This document shows positions 36,521 through 44,811 of a stretch of DNA of 64,000 nucleotides, one piece after another. Positions within the stretch are counted from its first letter, which is position 1, and each line of letters begins with the position of its first letter. The stretch is from Synergistaceae bacterium (GTDB lineage: Bacteria; Synergistota; Synergistia; Synergistales; Aminobacteriaceae). The position numbers and the translations under genes are program-made. The notes beneath the pieces were generated by a model. The model saw only the letters and a list, made by a program, of their open reading frames with translations, made no database searches and was not told the origin of the DNA. The stretch is taken from the NCBI GenBank assembly GCA_018436725.1, contig JAHDKT010000026.1:94842-158841 (forward strand), given 5' to 3'.

Positions 36521-37210
36521 TTATCTTTTTCCGAACGTATCGTCGTACCGTCTCCTTTTGCTTATCGAGACGCCGTACTTCACCAGCCCCGAGGCGATGA
36601 TCAACGCGCAAATCACTCCATCCAGGACCGGGACGCCCAGCTCGCGCTCCATACGCTTGTCGAGCCCCGCGAAACCGGCGCATCCAAGTACCAGGACCTC
36701 CGCCATGTCATCCTCCACGGCCCGCCTCCCCGCAGCGATCAGCCTGCCCGCTTCGTCCGGCTCCTTTTCGATGCTCGCAGGTCGAACGGAGGCCATGTCT
36801 CTGGAGAGACCGTACTTGTCTATCAACGCCTTCTTGTTGGGCACTGTGCGCTCGACGGGAGCGATCACGGAGAAGCTGTGTCCCAGCATGGTTGCCATCT
36901 TCATCGAAGCCTCGGCTATGCCGACGACGGGCTTCGTCGTGATCTCCTTCATCAGGTCGATGTTGGGATCTCCGTGACAGGCGATGACAAACGCGTCGAA
37001 AGCATCCTGGTTTTCGCGGAGCAGCGCGATCATCCCGGGCGCGGCAAGCGCATGATCCTCGTAGGTGGCGATGAACGGCGACGTCCCCGGCGTCGGGACG
37101 GTGACGATGTCCATATCGCCGCCCGCGAAAGCGCACGCGTTCCTGTGAATCGCTTCCGTCATTTCCAGGCTGCTGTTCGGATTGATCACCAGTATTCGTG
37201 GTTTCGCCAT
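36521..37210 (-). CDS. Asp/Glu/hydantoin racemase family protein
   Basis: This 229-residue member of the cofactor-independent racemase family carries the two catalytic cysteine sites, FVIACHGDPNID near residue 78 and EVLVLGCAGFAGLDKR near 188. NPNSSLEMTEAI at the N-terminus is typical of hydantoin racemases. Set between a cyclic amidohydrolase (7-base gap) and a TRAP transporter, it probably epimerises a 5-substituted hydantoin or a related intermediate. This lets a stereospecific hydrolase use both enantiomers. Confidence 0.88.
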   Translation of the reverse strand: MAKPRILVINPNSSLEMTEAIHRNACAFAGGDMDIVTVPTPGTSPFIATYEDHALAAPGMIALLRENQDAFDAFVIACHGDPNIDLMKEITTKPVVGIAEASMKMATMLGHSFSVIAPVERTVPNKKALIDKYGLSRDMASVRPASIEKEPDEAGRLIAAGRRAVEDDMAEVLVLGCAGFAGLDKRMERELGVPVLDGVICALIIASGLVKYGVSISKRRRYDDTFGKR

Positions 37211-37217
37211 AACGCGC

Positions 37218-38606
37218 CTACTTCCACTCGGGGCGCATCACCTTGCCCCACCCCTCGGCCGAATCGTCGATCTTCCGGTCCCTCATGACGATCCTGCCGC
37301 GAACGATCGTGTGGACGGGTCTGCCAACCAGCCGGAATCCGTTGTACATGGGGGAGGTGTCCCGTGAATGCGTGACGAACTCCTTGTTGTTCACCGTGTA
37401 CTCGTTCTCCATGTCGACGATGACGAAGTCGGCGTCTCCGCCCGTGCGGATCGCGCCTTTGCGCGGCCACAGGCCGAAGATCCTCGCCGGATTCTCGCAG
37501 AGAAGCTGGACCATGCGCCGCATGGAGAGCTTCCCGTCGCGCACCGCGGTGAGCATCAGCGGAAGCGTCATCTCGATGCACGCGGGCCCCGCCGCGGCGG
37601 TGAAGATATCCTTCATTCCCTTCTCCTTCTCGGAGACCAGGAAGGGACCGTGGTCGCTGCCGATGAAATCGACCGAGCCGTCCACGACGTACTTCCAGAG
37701 TTTTTCCATGGACTCCCGACTGCGAAGCGGGGGATTCCCCTTGGCGTACGGGCCGTATTTGTCGATGGCTTCTTCCGTGAGAAAGAGGTAGTGCGGGCAG
37801 GTCTCGAGATAGACGTCCATCCCGTCGAGTTTCGCCCTCTTCACCAGCTCCGCGGCCTCGGGGGTGGAGATATGCGCGAAGCTCACCCGCGTTCCGGTCT
37901 CCTTCGCGAAGAGGATGAGCTTCGCCACGGTCTCGATCTCGGTGATCGGGGGACGGGATTTGTAGTGATACTCGAAGCTCGTCTTCCCCTCGGCCCTGAA
38001 CTGCCGTATCAACCGCTGAATGATGTCGTTGTTTTCCGCGTGGACGGTGAGAATAAGCCCGGTTCTGGCGACCGCGCGGAAACCGTCCAGCATCTCGCCG
38101 TCGTTTGCCATCGTGAGCCCACGGAACTCCTCGTCCCGCCCCTCCGGAGGCTCGTGGAGGAATGTTTTGAACGCGACGATCCCCTCCTTGGCAACCTTTT
38201 CCACTTCTTCGGGGAACTCGGCGCCGGCGGCCCCGAAAAACGCATAGTCGACAAGCGCCTGCGGTTCGGCCACCTTCACCCGGTTCCTCAGAATCTCGGG
38301 GGAATAGGGAGGGGGAGATGAGATAGGATGCTCCAGGAAGCACGTCACGCCTCCCGCCGCAGCGGCCTTCGTCTCGGTGACGAAAGTGCCGCGTTCCCTG
38401 TGCCCGGGGTCGCGGACATGCACGTGCGTATCCACGACGCCCGGAAGCACAGGCTTCCCTCCCGCGTCGAGCACGTTTTCCGCTTCGGGAAGGTACTCGT
38501 CGCTGCAAACGGCGACCGTTTTACCGTCATGAACCGCTACCCCGCCGTGAAAAAACTCTCCGTCGACGTACACCTGTCCGTTTCGAATCACAAGATCAGC
38601 TTTCAC
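37218..38606 (-). CDS. Cyclic amidohydrolase (hydantoinase/allantoinase/dihydroorotase family), copy 2 of a tandem pair
   Basis: This 462-residue metal-dependent hydrolase opens a cyclic amide ring. The full metal set is present: His61 and His63 in DTHVHVRDPG, carbamylated Lys147 in GIVAFKTFLHEPP, His189, His245 and Asp318 in FIGSDHGPF. The sequence is closest to allantoinase/dihydroorotase-like members. With racemase and carbamoylase in the operon, a hydantoinase role is likely. The start is GTG at 38606, 9 bases after GGAGG. It is paralogous to the gene upstream, with the metal ligands at nearly identical residue numbers. Confidence 0.88.
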   Translation of the reverse strand: MKADLVIRNGQVYVDGEFFHGGVAVHDGKTVAVCSDEYLPEAENVLDAGGKPVLPGVVDTHVHVRDPGHRERGTFVTETKAAAAGGVTCFLEHPISSPPPYSPEILRNRVKVAEPQALVDYAFFGAAGAEFPEEVEKVAKEGIVAFKTFLHEPPEGRDEEFRGLTMANDGEMLDGFRAVARTGLILTVHAENNDIIQRLIRQFRAEGKTSFEYHYKSRPPITEIETVAKLILFAKETGTRVSFAHISTPEAAELVKRAKLDGMDVYLETCPHYLFLTEEAIDKYGPYAKGNPPLRSRESMEKLWKYVVDGSVDFIGSDHGPFLVSEKEKGMKDIFTAAAGPACIEMTLPLMLTAVRDGKLSMRRMVQLLCENPARIFGLWPRKGAIRTGGDADFVIVDMENEYTVNNKEFVTHSRDTSPMYNGFRLVGRPVHTIVRGRIVMRDRKIDDSAEGWGKVMRPEWK

Positions 38607-38745
38607 CGCAAAAAACCTCCTTCGACTGAATACACCTCGTTCTGAACGCTCCTGCGCGATCTCTCCCAAAAAACGCTCAAGTTCCTTCTTCGCTCCTCCG
38701 TCCGCGCTGGAAAAACGCCCATCCGCTCGCAAACGACACAACCGA

Positions 38746-40125
38746 TCAAGAAAACACGTTTTCCCCCCACCCGAAGCGAGGAACGGGTTCGCTCCTTCGG
38801 GAATACACGATACGTCCCCTTACCAGCGTCATCTCCGCCCTTCCGAAAAGCCTCCGCCCCTCGTAAAGACGCGCGATTTCTCTGCCGGCAGTCTTCATAC
38901 AGCTGCGCTCGACCTGGAAAGATGCATCCGGGTCGAGCGCGACAAGATCGGCATCCGCCCCGATCGCGAGCGCTCCTTTTTTCGGATGGATACCAAAAAT
39001 CCTGGCTGCGTTCAGCGAGTGCAGCTCCACCATTCTCTCCAGAGAGAGCATCCCCTCCCTGACGGCGGTGATCAGCAGCGGAAGGCGTTCCTCGAAGCCG
39101 ACGGATCCTGCGGGAGCGGTAAAAATATCCTGCACGCCGGGCTCTTTTTCGGAGATCAGAAACGGCCCGTGGTCGCTTCCGATAAAGTCGACCGTTCCAT
39201 CCCTGACGAAATCCCAGAGACGTTCTTTGGTTTCCCTGTTTCTGATGGGGGGATTGAACTTGGCGAAAGGACCGAGAGGAGCGACGCTCTCCTCGTCGCA
39301 GAAGAGATACTGGGGGCAGGTTTCGGCGAAAACGGGATACCCCTCCCTCTTCGCGCTTCGTATGCGCTCCATGGCCTCCGGCGTGGAAACATGACAGACG
39401 CTTATTCGGGCGCCTGTCGAACGGGCGTACAAAATGACCTTTTCCACGGCTGCAACCTCGGAGACGGGAGGACGCGACGCTCCGTGCGAAAGGAAATCCA
39501 CAGCGCCGTCGGCTCGCAGCCTCTTCGTCAGCATCTGAACGATGGAGTCGTTCTCGGCGTGCACGGCGCATATCTTCCCGGTGCGCGCAATCGCGGCGAG
39601 GCCCTCCAGGAGATTGCCGTCGTCCTCCATGCACGTGCCGATGAACTCCTCCTCCCGGCCTCGGGGAGGCTTGAAAAGAAATGTCTTGAAGGCGACGATG
39701 CCGGCATCGGCCAGCGAGGGGATCTGGTCGAGCCTGTTCCCTGCGGCGCCGTAGAAGGCGAAATCGACGACGGACTGCGCGGAAGCGCAGCGCACTCGAT
39801 CGCGCACTATCTCCGCCGAATACTGCGGCGGGCTTGAGATAGGCATCTCGAAAATCGTAGTGATTCCTCCTGCGGCGGCGGCAAGCGTCTCGCTCGCGAA
39901 CGTTCCCCGATCGCGCCTGCCGGGGTCGCGAACGTGCACATGCGTGTCGACGCCTCCAGGAAGCAGGGTCAGGCCGTTGAGGTCGATCTCTTCCGCTCCG
40001 TCCGGAAGATACGCATTGCCCCCCAAACAGACGATACGCCCGTCCCGGATCGCCACACCTCCGTCCGAGAGACATCCGGAGGAGAAAAAACGCCCGTTGC
40101 GCAGGACTGTATCGGCTCGACTCAT
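38746..40125 (-). CDS. Cyclic amidohydrolase (hydantoinase/allantoinase/dihydroorotase family), copy 1 of a tandem pair
   Basis: This 459-residue paralogue of the downstream gene has a complete metal centre: His62, His64, Lys147, His189, His245 and Asp318. It differs in ring-proximal segments, such as TTIFEMPISSPPQYSAE where the other copy has TCFLEHPISSPPPYSPE. The two may therefore open different rings. Its ATG overlaps the IclR regulator stop as ATGA. The 139 bases after it hold no obvious element. Gene duplication followed by specialisation is the simplest explanation. Confidence 0.88.
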   Translation of the reverse strand: MSRADTVLRNGRFFSSGCLSDGGVAIRDGRIVCLGGNAYLPDGAEEIDLNGLTLLPGGVDTHVHVRDPGRRDRGTFASETLAAAAGGITTIFEMPISSPPQYSAEIVRDRVRCASAQSVVDFAFYGAAGNRLDQIPSLADAGIVAFKTFLFKPPRGREEEFIGTCMEDDGNLLEGLAAIARTGKICAVHAENDSIVQMLTKRLRADGAVDFLSHGASRPPVSEVAAVEKVILYARSTGARISVCHVSTPEAMERIRSAKREGYPVFAETCPQYLFCDEESVAPLGPFAKFNPPIRNRETKERLWDFVRDGTVDFIGSDHGPFLISEKEPGVQDIFTAPAGSVGFEERLPLLITAVREGMLSLERMVELHSLNAARIFGIHPKKGALAIGADADLVALDPDASFQVERSCMKTAGREIARLYEGRRLFGRAEMTLVRGRIVYSRRSEPVPRFGWGENVFS

Positions 40126-40913
40126 ACCGATTCACCGCTTTGTCGGTCCATAAAACCAATCTTTTTTCTCATGCTCTCAGCAGTTTCAAGAACGGCCTGT
40201 ATCATCCGCGCAAGCTCTTCTCCCTTCGCCCGGTGTTCGGGCATCGCAATTCCCACGCTCCCGTAGGAGTTTTCATTCGGGAAGAAGAGAGGCGCCGCGA
40301 TCCCGGTGACTCCGGGGTCGACTGCGCCGGTGGACACGACGTACCCTTTTCTGCGCAGAAAAAAATATCTTTCAAGGATTTTCTCCGGATCGGTTTCCGT
40401 TGCCGTGGTAAACGGCTGAAGAGGGTTTTTTGCGATGAAGGCGCGGACGCTTTCCTCGGGCATACCGATGAGCACGGCGAAACCTGTGGCGCCTGCGTAG
40501 AGCGGAAAGTGCTGCCCTATCTCGGAGGAGATTTTCAAACGCTGCGACGACTCGATCTTATCCACGCAGACCGCGGCGATATCGTCGGACATGGAGAGAA
40601 TGGCCGTCTCTCCCGTTCTTTGCGCCAGTTCTTCAAGCAACGGACGAAGCGCGGCGCACGACGAAAGCTCCTGGTCGGCAATACGGCCGAGCGTCAAGAC
40701 CTTGATGCCAAGAGTATACTTCTCGGTTCCTGGGAGCTTTCGGAGCCAACCGGCGCTCTCAAGAGTAACAACCAGACGATGCACGGTACTTCGATGAAGC
40801 CCCACTCTTCGAGCTATTTCGGGAATAGCCAGCGCAGGACGCGCTTCGGCGAAAGCCTCCAATATTCCGAGAGAGCGCAGAATCGATTGATTCAAATACC
40901 TTGAAGGGTCCAT
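40122..40913 (-). CDS. IclR-family transcription regulator
   Basis: This 263-residue regulator has an N-terminal winged helix (about 8-70, LAIPEIARRVGLHRSTVHRLVVTLESAGW). The C-terminal IclR effector domain includes YAGATGFAVLIGMPEE and the GAVDPGVTGIAAPLF loop. It is the first gene of the hydantoin operon and is ATGA-coupled to the first amidohydrolase, so it probably regulates that operon and itself. AGGAGG precedes the ATG. A strong promoter and a small palindrome lie upstream. Confidence 0.9.
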   Translation of the reverse strand: MDPSRYLNQSILRSLGILEAFAEARPALAIPEIARRVGLHRSTVHRLVVTLESAGWLRKLPGTEKYTLGIKVLTLGRIADQELSSCAALRPLLEELAQRTGETAILSMSDDIAAVCVDKIESSQRLKISSEIGQHFPLYAGATGFAVLIGMPEESVRAFIAKNPLQPFTTATETDPEKILERYFFLRRKGYVVSTGAVDPGVTGIAAPLFFPNENSYGSVGIAMPEHRAKGEELARMIQAVLETAESMRKKIGFMDRQSGESV

Positions 40914-41131: not shown

Positions 41132-41544
41132 ATGACGGACTTTTTTACAACTCTTTCTCCGGCGGAGAAAGGTACAGGGCGCTCGCTCCCCGAAAAGACG
41201 GTCCGGTTGATAGCGGAGCGTTGTGGATGCGACGAGCGCGTCGGTCTATCTGCTCGGTAGCACCGCTCGGGGGACGATGAGCCCCGACAGCGATGTCGAC
41301 ATCGGCGTTCTTCCCGCCCCGGGAGAGGTCTTCCCTTGAACTCGCGGAATTCACCGCGGAACCGTCGTTCGAAACGGGGTACGTTATCGACGCCGGGCTC
41401 GTCGACGGAATGGACCTTGTCTACGCGAACGAAGCGCTGGGCGGGATGCGTCTTTTCGTCCGGGAAGGGAAGACGACGGCACTGCGCCCCATGTACCTTC
41501 GCTTTTGCGAGGACAGAAAGGAGGTCGTCGATGCCTACGGTTGA
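41132..41544 (+). pseudogene. Broken MntA-type nucleotidyltransferase antitoxin
   Basis: The ATG at 41132 has a good AAGGGGG site, but the frame is broken twice. Frame one (MTDFFTTLSPAEKGTG...) ends at 41260. The core motif, VYLLGSTARGTMSPDSDVDI, is in the next frame, which stops at 41339. The C-terminal part (ELAEFTAEPSFETGYV to VVDAYG) continues in the third frame to 41544. The GSxARG...SDxD motif is that of MNT-domain antitoxins, which AMPylate HEPN toxins. Two frameshifts within about 110 bases mark decay; sequencing error is the alternative. Confidence 0.75.
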
Positions 41545-41737
41545 CGATGTGTGCAGGAACAAGGCCTCCATCATCGAGCGGACGCTGCGCCGGATGAAGG
41601 AAGAATATACCGCCGACCCGGAGCTGAAGAGCTTCACGCACATCGACGCCATCACGCTGAACATCGAACGAGCTTGCCGGACCGCTATCGACGCGGCGTG
41701 CGCCTTTCGTCTTTACGTAGCTTTATTATGTCAATAA
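41531..41737 (+). pseudogene. Truncated HepT-type (HEPN, DUF86) toxin
   Basis: The 68-residue frame starts at ATG 41531, six bases after AAAGGAGG, and overlaps the end of the MNT remnant as intact mntA-hepT pairs often do. Residues MPTVDDVCRNKASIIERTLRRM and DAITLNIERACRTAIDAA match the first helices of HepT. The usual length is about 140 residues, and the Rx4-6H RNase motif near the C-terminus is missing. It is therefore a non-functional remnant. Confidence 0.65.
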
Positions 41738-41776
41738 ACAGAAAAATGTCATCCTAAAAGATTCATTACAGCGCTC

Positions 41777-41805
41777 TTGACAATCCCGAAATGGCCCTGT
41801 AAGAT
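41777..41805 (+). promoter_or_regulatory. Sigma-70-type promoter for the ilv leader and operon
   Basis: TTGACA (41777-41782) and TAAGAT (41800-41805) are 17 bases apart, about 47 bases before the leader peptide start. Confidence 0.72.
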
Positions 41806-41851
41806 TACCGCCAATTTACACACACGACGCGAAAGCAAAGGAGGGATTCCC

Positions 41852-41950
41852 GTGAAGAAGGCAGCCGAAGTGTTGCGTACCGTTCTTGTTCTTGTAGTAG
41901 TACTTCTCGGTCGCTGCGGGGATTCTCCCGGAGTGCTTCTCGTCGTATAG
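41852..41950 (+). CDS. Branched-chain amino acid leader peptide (attenuation)
   Basis: This 32-codon frame starts with GTG, 6 bases after AAGGAGGG. Residues 11-19 are V-L-V-L-V-V-V-L-L and the last five are V-L-L-V-V, giving 16 Val or Leu in 32 with no Ile. It sits between a promoter and a terminator ahead of ilvC-ilvB. Ribosome stalling at Val or Leu codons would free an antiterminator that begins within the peptide's own coding sequence. This closely matches the logic of enterobacterial ilv leaders, although the peptide itself is not a recognised homologue. Confidence 0.82.
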   Translation: MKKAAEVLRTVLVLVVVLLGRCGDSPGVLLVV

Positions 41951-41985
41951 ACCGACGAAGAGTCCTCGACCGGGATCCCCGCAGC
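41913..41985 (+). promoter_or_regulatory. Antiterminator pairing of the ilv attenuator
   Basis: GCTGCGGGGAT (41913-41923) is an exact complement of 41975-41985. CCCGG (41927-41931) complements CCGGG (41970-41974), giving 16 pairs with one 3-base bulge. This pairing uses the 5' arm of the terminator at 41969-42000, so the two folds exclude each other. Confidence 0.8.
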
Positions 41986-42006
41986 AGCGGGGGTCCCGGT
42001 TTTTTT
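41969..42006 (+). terminator. Attenuator terminator of the ilv operon
   Basis: A 14-pair stem (41969-41982 with 41987-42000, one G-U pair) with an AGCA loop is followed by TTTTTT. It lies 19 bases after the leader stop and 88 bases before ilvC. Confidence 0.92.
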
Positions 42007-42093
42007 ATGCGCGGTCGAGGCCCACGAACGGCGGAAAGAGGCCGCAAGGCCCTTGAGGCATAGACTATATTCTGAAAAAGGGGTTGGAACGAA

Positions 42094-43104
<1,011 letters not shown>

Positions 43105-43131: not shown

Positions 43132-44811
43132 ATGAAGATGACTGGCGCGCAGATGGCTGTGGAAGCTCTTGCACTGGAGGGAGTCCGGTGCGTGTTCGGA
43201 ATACCGGGAGGAGCGGTACTTCCGCTGTACGACGCGCTCCGCGAAGCTCCCTTCTCCCATATCCTGGTACGTCACGAGCAGGCCGCCGCGCACGCCGCCG
43301 ACGGCTATGCGCGGGCGAGCGGCGAACCGGGCGTGTGCATCTGCACCTCCGGCCCCGGATTCACCAATATCCTCACCGGACTGGCCACGGCGCATTTCGA
43401 CTCCGTACCCATGGTGGCGATCACCGGGCAGGTGGCGACCGCGCTTCTGGGCACGGATGCGTTCCAGGAGGCCGACACGTTCGGCGACAGCCTGTCGCAC
43501 GTGAAGCACTGCTTCCTGGTCCGCTCGCCGGACGACATCCCATCCGTCATACGGAGCGCCTTTGAAATAGCGGCGTCGGGACGCCCCGGGCCGGTCGTCG
43601 TAGAGCTTCCCGTCGATATTCAGCGAAGCGGGGGGGAGTACATCCGGCCCGAGAGAGTGCTCTTCGCGCGTCATCGAGCGCGCAACGAGGAGAACGGCTC
43701 ACGGATGGCCAAGGCCGCCCGTCTGCTCGAAACCGCCGAGCGGCCGGTCATCCTCGCTGGAGGCGGCGTCATCGCAGGAGGCGCGGCGCAGCAGCTCCTT
43801 CGCCTGGCCGAAAGACTTCAGAGCCCCGTCGCGACCACGCTGATGGGCAAGGGCGCGTTCCCGGAGTCGCATGCGCTCTCCCTCGGCATGGCGGGGATGC
43901 ACGGAACCCCCGCCGCCAATCTCGCGCTCTCCGAAGCCGACGTGATTCTGGGCGTCGGCACGCGCTTCAGCGACAGAACCACCGGCAAGGCGGCCGAGTT
44001 CGCGAAGAACGCCGCCGTCATCCACATCGACATCGACGACGCCGAGATCGACAAGATCGTGCGGTGCGCCGTACCGCTCGTCGGGGAAGCGGGGGCGATC
44101 CTTGCGGGTCTTGCGGAAACGCTGACGGAAAGGGAGACGAGCGAATGGGCTGCGGCAACGCAAAAAATGAAGGGTGACTACCCCCTTGCGGACCCCGACG
44201 AGACGGACTTTCTTCCCTCCGCTATCTTCGGAACGCTTCAGCAAAGGCTCGGCAATCACTGGACCGCCGCGGTGGACGTGGGGCAGCATCAGATGTGGGC
44301 CGCCCTCTTCTGGAAGGCGCACTACCCGAGGACGTTTCTGACCACGGGCGGACTGGGAACGATGGGGTACGCGCTTCCGGCGGCGATGGGCGCCTCCCTC
44401 GCGCACGGCAAAACGCCCGTGCTCTGCTTCGCGGGCGACGGCGGCTTCATGATGAACGTCCAGGAACTCGAGACTTGCGCACGATACCAAATCCCGGTGA
44501 AGATCTTCATTTTAAACAACGACAGCCTGGGCATGGTGCGGCAGCTTCAGGATTTTTACTGCAACGGACGTTACTTCGCGGTCAACCCCTCGTCCACATG
44601 CCACTTCCCAACCATCGCCAGAGGATTCGGCGTCCATGCGCGCACCTGCTCCGCCCTCGACGAGCTGGACGACGCGCTCGACAACCTGCTGCACACGCCG
44701 GGTCCCGGCCTTCTGGACTGCCGCATTCCGAAGGAGGAGCTGGTCCTTCCGATGGTACCGGCGGGAGCGGCGCTGAAAGACTTCGTCTATAGAGTGAAAG
44801 AGCGGGTCTGA
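43132..44811 (+). CDS. ilvB: Acetolactate synthase large (catalytic) subunit
   Basis: This 559-residue ThDP enzyme makes acetolactate or acetohydroxybutyrate. It has the catalytic Glu in RHEQAAAHAADGYARASGE near residue 46. The FAD-domain motif VGTRFSDRTTGK is near 283, and the ThDP motif GDGGFMMNVQELETCARYQ is near 433. No regulatory small subunit (ilvN/ilvH) follows; the next gene is convergent. Feedback inhibition by valine would need a small subunit encoded elsewhere. The operon control is the Val/Leu attenuator. Confidence 0.94.
   Translation: MKMTGAQMAVEALALEGVRCVFGIPGGAVLPLYDALREAPFSHILVRHEQAAAHAADGYARASGEPGVCICTSGPGFTNILTGLATAHFDSVPMVAITGQVATALLGTDAFQEADTFGDSLSHVKHCFLVRSPDDIPSVIRSAFEIAASGRPGPVVVELPVDIQRSGGEYIRPERVLFARHRARNEENGSRMAKAARLLETAERPVILAGGGVIAGGAAQQLLRLAERLQSPVATTLMGKGAFPESHALSLGMAGMHGTPAANLALSEADVILGVGTRFSDRTTGKAAEFAKNAAVIHIDIDDAEIDKIVRCAVPLVGEAGAILAGLAETLTERETSEWAAATQKMKGDYPLADPDETDFLPSAIFGTLQQRLGNHWTAAVDVGQHQMWAALFWKAHYPRTFLTTGGLGTMGYALPAAMGASLAHGKTPVLCFAGDGGFMMNVQELETCARYQIPVKIFILNNDSLGMVRQLQDFYCNGRYFAVNPSSTCHFPTIARGFGVHARTCSALDELDDALDNLLHTPGPGLLDCRIPKEELVLPMVPAGAALKDFVYRVKERV

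Follow-up and report, generated by a model that had tools for sequence, protein, structure and literature searches.

A predicted Val/Leu leader-peptide attenuator upstream of a second ilvC-ilvB operon, and a candidate Synergistota family of attenuators with exchangeable control codons

Attenuators are usually viewed as one-off solutions, each built for its own operon. In Escherichia coli the leaders of the ilvGMEDA and ilvBN attenuators, named ilvL and ivbL, combine an open reading frame (ORF) rich in branched-chain codons with mutually exclusive antiterminator and terminator structures in front of ilv genes. T-box riboswitches place one RNA architecture before many operons and change a codon-like specifier for each amino acid; they bind tRNA directly and do not need translation. 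The leader attenuators of E. coli ilvGMEDA and ilvBN are attested in the portion of PMC1183508 that was available, and the accessible parts of PMC1262725, PMC11857589 and PMC10272879 report, for ilvBNC of Corynebacterium and Actinobacteria, a short leader ORF with an Ile/Val/Leu run that overlaps a terminator before the ilv genes. As regards the Synergistetes (Synergistota), no description of such attenuators was found in the accessible text of the literature searched, which consisted mostly of non-subscription papers and included PMC8632094 and PMC11109978. Within the sections at hand, PMC9413887 covers the Synergistetes for the HisR repressor only. In PMC6429828 the intergenic regions of Thermovirga lienii (Synergistetes) were scanned and 31 were left unnamed; the available part of its section on this organism does not describe the attenuator family discussed below, and two shikimate-linked uORFs containing Phe and Tyr appear in a legend of the extract, the organism being unspecified there.

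The window analyzed here, a 64,000-nucleotide stretch of DNA from a Synergistaceae bacterium, contains a leader upstream of ilvC and ilvB (Table 1) that resembles the E. coli ilvGMEDA and ilvBN leaders in its branched-chain-codon-rich ORF and its exclusive antiterminator and terminator before ilv genes. The short branched-chain-run ORF and terminator before ilv genes are also shared with the actinobacterial ilvBNC leader, as depicted in the accessible parts of the sources on the latter. Unlike the E. coli systems, the version in the window is devoid of Ile codons, and in the Synergistota the antiterminator arm is the coding sequence right after the control run, with the stop codon lying in the loop of a hairpin, P2. 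We consider it very probable that this leader is a ribosome-mediated attenuator, predicted to respond to scarce charged Val- or Leu-tRNA, and that it belongs to a phylum-wide family in which one chassis is used with swapped control codons.

Table 1. Coordinates of the leader and the operon that follows it in the window
Feature	Position	Strand	Basis
Putative sigma-70-like promoter, TTGACA-17-TAAGAT	41777..41805	+	consensus match only, 10/12 positions
Shine-Dalgarno (SD) GGAGG of leader	41840..41844	+	sequence
Leader peptide ORF, GTG start, 32 codons, stop TAG 41948-41950	41852..41950	+	translation; frame conserved in relatives
Main control codons 11-19, V-L-V-L-V-V-V-L-L	41882..41908	+	sequence; Ile run there in the ilvN-ilvC leader on contig C31
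Antiterminator arm within codons R-C-G-D-S-P-G; alternatively self-closing as hairpin P1	41913..41931	+	folding, covariation
Hairpin P2, 41935-41945 with 41953-41964, stop codon in loop; antiterminator core	41935..41964	+	folding, covariation
Intrinsic terminator, stem 15 bp 41968-42001, T7 42000-42006	41968..42006	+	pattern scan, folding
ilvC, ketol-acid reductoisomerase (second copy)	42094..43104	+	NCBIfam, Pfam, ilvC tree
ilvB, acetolactate synthase large subunit (second copy)	43132..44811	+	NCBIfam, Pfam

The leader peptide, MKKAAEVLRTVLVLVVVLLGRCGDSPGVLLVV (followed by the stop), has Val or Leu at 16 of its 32 residues and no Ile, which agrees with a preceding sequence-only reading that had described it as half Val or Leu. 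However, the option of counting all 16 as control codons was ruled out, because the final LLVV is common to Ile-type leaders and forms part of a hairpin. Codons 11 to 19 read GTT CTT GTT CTT GTA GTA GTA CTT CTC; all five Val codons among codons 11-17 are GTT or GTA, which together account for 18% of the Val codons in ten window ORFs, and codons this rare would fit a stall site of high sensitivity. The 16-base pairing that had been proposed between arm and terminator was recovered as 11+5 = 16 bp around a 3-nt bulge, with GCUGCGGGGAU-ucu-CCCGG (41913-41931) complementary to CCGGGAUCCCCGCAGC (41970-41985). Given that positions 41970-41982 are used by both, antiterminator and terminator are mutually exclusive, as had been claimed, and the terminator itself is present as a stem with a T-run, albeit of 15 bp and T7 and not of 14 bp and T6 as first reported, the two outer pairs being G-U and A-U. 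Several elements that typify ribosome-mediated transcription attenuators of the trp/his/leu/ilv type are found at this locus, namely a putative leader ORF with its SD, a control run, an intrinsic terminator and a mutually exclusive antiterminator with compensatory change. A pattern scan of 41400-42300 on both strands returned two promoter-like sites, against a shuffle mean of 0.4. We also observed that 41903-41913, inside the Val/Leu codons, is a near-copy of the P2 5' strand at 41936-41945 (CTTCTCGGTCG and CTTCTCGTCG) and could pair with the P2 3' strand, as it does in one predicted fold; the aligned Ile-type leaders mostly have ATT codons at this site.

The terminator piece folds with an energy of -32.8 kcal/mol (z = -5.2) and the antiterminator piece 41905-41990, which stops short of the complete terminator 3' arm and forms the long antiterminator, with -47.8 kcal/mol (z = -5.0), values that were reached by none of 200 shuffles in either case. 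The stretch 41852-41990, which includes the whole ORF, gave z = -2.8 (reached by 1 of 200 shuffles) and the whole leader z = -4.2 (0 of 200). A bare terminator pattern is unremarkable for this region (one found, shuffle mean 1.4), and it is the stability that is unusual. In an alignment of 61 leaders, whose rows are related and which was fitted to the tested structure, changes on both sides were detected at 22 of the 23 pairs of P1, P2 and the terminator, and 90.9% of the cells were paired, as against 73.4% upon shuffling and 39.2-59.2% upon sliding. Since the register between arm and terminator shifts by one column between groups, column-wise counting of their pairs was replaced by a permutation test. 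Across 29 non-redundant leaders, the arm paired with its own terminator arm at a mean of -18.1 kcal/mol compared to -16.2 kcal/mol with the terminators of other leaders, and this observed mean was reached by none of 20,000 permutations. The exact Watson-Crick run gave a weaker signal, being reached by 40 of the 20,000 permutations, and 17 of the 29 leaders beat 95% of the mononucleotide shuffles of their own terminator arm, a proportion that we count against the attenuator reading. The cores of arm and terminator co-vary, GGGTCC occurring with GGACCC, GGATCC with GGATCC, GGGACCCC with GGGGTCCC and GCGGGGAT with ATCCCCGC. The covariation check that the sequence-only reading had proposed thus shows a frame conserved in relatives and an arm and terminator that change together; its interpretation as attenuation is upheld by the recurrence of frame, SD, control run, antiterminator and terminator with compensatory changes and by control codons that match the pathway. 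Pairing of the SD with the arm as a third fold was also considered and set aside as too loose, CYTCC being present in 72 of the 128 arm regions.

In the proposed mechanism, scarcity of charged Val- or Leu-tRNA would hold the ribosome at Val/Leu codons 11-19 and leave the codons that follow (R-C-G-D-S-P-G...) free; these, along with P2 and the terminator 5' arm, would fold as one long antiterminator, and transcription would proceed into ilvC-ilvB. A ribosome that reaches the stop codon in the P2 loop would break the antiterminator hairpin, in which case the arm may self-fold as P1 and the terminator would form. We infer that such stalling takes place and affects termination in this manner, and that the operon answers Val and Leu, not Ile. 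We modeled the ribosome as a footprint from A-17 to A+12, with no pairing permitted to the RNA upstream of it and the transcript truncated four bases beyond the terminator 5' arm. In this model, the probability of the window antiterminator is 0.82 with the A site at codons 3-18, 0.69 at Leu-19, 0.40 at Gly-20 and 0.00 at the stop. Averaging 28 leaders gives a curve of the same shape, which runs at 0.71-0.76 over the positions 12 to 2 codons ahead of the arm and falls to 0.52 at the last codon, to 0.35 at the arm itself and to 0.00 once the stop is reached; thus, the end of the control run roughly coincides with the last position at which a stalled ribosome leaves the arm free. If the arm is allowed to pair across a ribosome at the stop, the folding model gives the antiterminator a mean of 0.54, and 0.80 for the window type, in which case timing or P1 would have to account for termination. 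Furthermore, P1 could form under stalling too, a point that we count against our best explanation.

The ilvC and ilvB genes of the window are ordinary biosynthetic enzymes as judged by NCBIfam and Pfam, and their operon lacks ilvN. There are three ilvC genes in this genome, that of the window on contig C55 (100%) and others on contigs C52 (92%) and C31 (90%). Contig C31 carries the arrangement leader-ilvN-ilvC and ends inside ilvB, and C52 starts just upstream of ilvC and extends into ilvB. The sequence-only reading had called the order ilvC-ilvB unusual, and this does not hold: a contiguous leader-ilvN-ilvC-ilvB is present in seven relatives (G001, G002, G003, G005, G011, G016 and G077), and therefore the order is the usual one of the clade, with ilvN missing in the window. 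In a further relative, G012, the leader likewise stands directly before ilvC with no ilvN between them, and gene order was accordingly rejected as a novelty. The ilvN product scored above the TIGR00119 cut-off in three relatives, and loss of this gene may remove valine feedback on the enzyme. Assembly mixing was ruled out as the source of the second copy, given that a congener, G014, has the same locus, with the same ilvC-ilvB start and the same leader. Its ilvC is 96.6% identical in bases to that of the window (3.4% differ), the two group with 100/99 support in the ilvC tree, and their leader ORFs differ in one codon. The assembly of the window's genome spans 4.78 Mb with 7.07% contamination, and C31 and C52 are partial canonical ilv loci at contig ends with ilvC 94% identical in bases; the difference between these two may reflect assembly mixing, possibly of two strains that were assembled together. 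Upstream of the ilv operon, on the minus strand (36521-40913), the window has two amidohydrolase-like ORFs and an Asp/Glu-racemase-like ORF, named by reading their translations, and an IclR-family regulator identified by Pfam.

A search of 81 genomes of the family that tolerated at most two mismatches placed the motif CGCTGCGGGGNNNCTCCCGG in the leader of the main ilv operon. On C31 this leader encodes MKNMSATTHFALTFVIAIAIIIIIRCGDSPGALLVV (again followed by the stop), and comparison with the leader of the window reveals a nearly identical tail preceded by an Ile run in the former and a Val/Leu run in the latter. An Ile-run leader precedes ilvN in the window's genome and in nine relatives, and an Ile/Val version precedes ilvC in G012. 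In a table of 48 ilvN/ilvC leaders only one, the G014 copy that represents the window type there, is free of Ile over the 12 codons preceding the arm. The Ile-less Val/Leu version was observed in just two genomes of one genus, which we count against our best explanation. Given its wide spread, the Ile version would be the older state, and by this sequence comparison the leader in the window looks like a retuned copy, the product of a natural Ile-to-Val/Leu retuning.

R1, a covariance model trained on 12 ilv leaders, had matches in 104 of 185 Synergistota genomes at E ≤ 0.01, and a second model built from 61 matches (R2) in 118 of the 185, from 52 of 62 genera, at E ≤ 0.001, both searches having been run with stricter filters at which weak matches are lost. 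The 67 genomes without an R2 match include the listed members of the large genus g10. Outside the Synergistota, R2 matched 1 of 50 genomes, marginally (E 3.1e-4); these 50 had been reached via ilvC relatives, and their record titles name other groups or, in two cases, just 'bacterium', and E. coli is not among them, which bounds the comparison with its ilv leaders. Some genomes have many matches at E ≤ 0.01 (15 in G119, 10 in G008, 9 in G104 and 7 in the window's genome). The leader of the window, itself part of the training set, matches R2 with 80.5 bits (E 4.4e-20), and its stop lies 45 bases into the match, within the range of 33-54 seen in 128 leaders. A leader ORF was assigned by script in 128 of 131 placed matches (3 without), and an SD of 4-5 matched bases precedes 117 of these 128 as against 9.2% with shuffled upstream DNA. 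Members share a chassis in which the control codons are followed by a C-G-x-P-P-G-like tail encoding the antiterminator arm, by a stop near the hairpin apex and by the terminator; the tail, often R/S-C-G-S-P-P-G, and the position of the stop are constant and the preceding run is variable. Rfam 15 produced no match in the window at the gathering cut-off, and below it, in 41770-42100, were sX12 (29.1 bits against 106), Scr6106 (23.2 against 52.5) and BjrC68 (19.2 against 39). These sequences are best read as a new family of ribosome-mediated attenuators, apparently specific to the phylum, in which a single chassis carries exchangeable control codons. In one genome, two leaders with the same peptide, L220 and L263 (G119:C8:513410-513515 and 513650-513755), stand in tandem 240 bases apart before ilvN, and a stretch near the end of the second copy reads N.

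The control runs of the family vary with the operon, being Ile/Val/Leu for ilv, Leu for leuA and leuC, Met for metX, metY and metN, Thr/Met for aspartate kinase and homoserine dehydrogenase, and Phe/Tyr for aryl-CoA ligases. Among the runs in the window's genome are Ile upstream of ilvN, Val/Leu upstream of ilvC (the window), Met upstream of both metX and metY, Leu upstream of leuA and Thr/Met upstream of aspartate kinase. In other genomes, homoserine dehydrogenase has a Thr run in front of it and a threonine dehydratase relative an Ile run, metN and metY have Met runs, leuA and leuC have Leu runs, and phenylacetate-CoA ligase relatives (under the cut-off of that family) have Phe/Tyr runs; an ABC substrate-binding protein is preceded by Phe, an aminotransferase by A-A-A-A and sodium symporters by Ile/Val/Leu. 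With cognate sets that were defined after the runs had been viewed, the match between run and gene class in 46 leaders, one per genus and gene, was reached by none of 20,000 label permutations. This set leaves out unassigned genes, codon windows of fewer than six codons, within-genus repeats, two met rows more than 500 bases away, the classes SNF, SSF, TRAP, ABC, panB, cysE, JAMM, aminotransferases, AddB-like and FAD protein, other unnamed genes, and L216, a PaaK-like gene behind a Met run. The outcome was likewise 0 of 20,000 when ilv was omitted (22 leaders), when the classes were limited to ilv, leu, met and thr (42) or to leu, met and thr (18), and when L216 and the distant met rows were restored (48). 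It should be noted that L216 contradicts the codon-gene rule, that the Leu runs before two leuC genes (L212, L223) are weak, that 17 of the 128 leaders have no script-assigned gene, although L229 among them has a TRAP solute-binding gene, and that for some leaders, among them those before AddB-like and FAD-protein genes, no link to the gene is evident. Two further runs were recorded. L289 in the window's genome (C11:124332-124433) has an LLVLVLVLLII run, the one downstream ORF tested being without a Pfam match, and a leader resembling it occurs in G004:C265. L213 (G119:C4:107909-108008) has a D-V-V-V-V-V-D-V run before panB; pantothenate requires the valine precursor and, via beta-alanine, aspartate.

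Several other explanations of these observations were weighed. The terminator might be constitutive, or the attenuator of this copy might have decayed, such that the leader lowers the expression of a spare operon and senses nothing. That the operon is a second copy without ilvN is in keeping with this, but we regard it as quite improbable, since the apparatus is intact, the single codon by which the leader ORFs of the window and G014 differ stands beside 3.4% divergence in ilvC, and the control run has been recoded, not scrambled. Alternatively, it could be the tail that matters: Pro-Pro-Gly is a known slow motif and is found in many members, and the tail is conserved across different control runs, as would be expected of a leader that senses a general slow-down of translation, or nascent-chain arrest at C-G-x-P-P-G, and not one amino acid. 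However, S-P-G stands at this point in the window and R-P-R or S-P-E in other members, the bases of the tail are the antiterminator arm and co-vary with the terminator, and the control codons fit gene function; we give this explanation hardly any credence.

The resemblance among members might also be due to convergence, with attenuators arising separately in each operon under shared pairing constraints, and repeated emergence of leader peptides is held plausible in Firmicutes in the accessible portion of PMC2965389. Against this, a single model built from ilv leaders (R1) retrieves leaders of the Met, Leu, Phe/Tyr and panB types in this phylum, R2 also finds Thr leaders, the sole R2 match among the 50 genomes from elsewhere is marginal, and similar tail codons and stop positions recur, making convergence unlikely in our view. 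On balance we favor descent from one ancestral attenuator, copied through the phylum and re-aimed by control-codon swaps, as the somewhat better-founded account. It would amount to a T-box-like set reading at least Ile, Val, Leu, Met, Thr and Phe/Tyr, and probably Ala, Cys and Asp, in which the window would represent a swap within one genome after operon duplication and the Met branch, stacked behind a SAM riboswitch, would act as a two-input gate. Like the T-boxes, the Synergistota family reuses one RNA architecture with changed codons for different amino acids, but unlike them it is predicted to act through a translated ORF. The single chassis also differs from the situation in Actinobacteria, where trp, leuS, leuA and cys have different structures according to the available sections of PMC1262725. 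A phylum-wide replacement of T-boxes was considered and dropped, as the window's genome has six T-box-like matches (contigs C39, C102, C13, C120, C6 and C82; 52-89 bits, cut-off 93). If common descent is correct, the common core with interchangeable codons would show a route to new amino-acid specificities, by copying the element and recoding the run, and the presence of Ile and Val/Leu leaders in one genome would make codon retuning directly testable. The family would also provide a regulatory map of amino-acid genes for the Synergistota, and its leaders could help in assigning functions, as for aryl-CoA ligases behind Phe/Tyr runs and transporters behind branched-chain runs.

In the Met branch, we noted an ordered stack consisting of a SAM riboswitch, a terminator-like hairpin with a T-run, a Met-run attenuator and a second terminator. 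It occurs before metX in L240 (3082-3430; contig C64 of the window's genome) and before metY in L292 (3479-3813; contig C23) and L306, and is predicted to work as a gate with SAM and Met-tRNA as its two inputs. The same stack was looked for and not found at L226, L207, L300, L277, L195, L280 and L307. PaaK-like aryl-CoA ligase genes are found behind Phe or Tyr runs in L286, L224, L215, L218, L295 and L276; these enzymes may serve aromatic amino acid synthesis from aryl acetates. The first two of these leaders belong to the same genome, G089, in which one aryl-CoA ligase leader has FFF and the other YYF.
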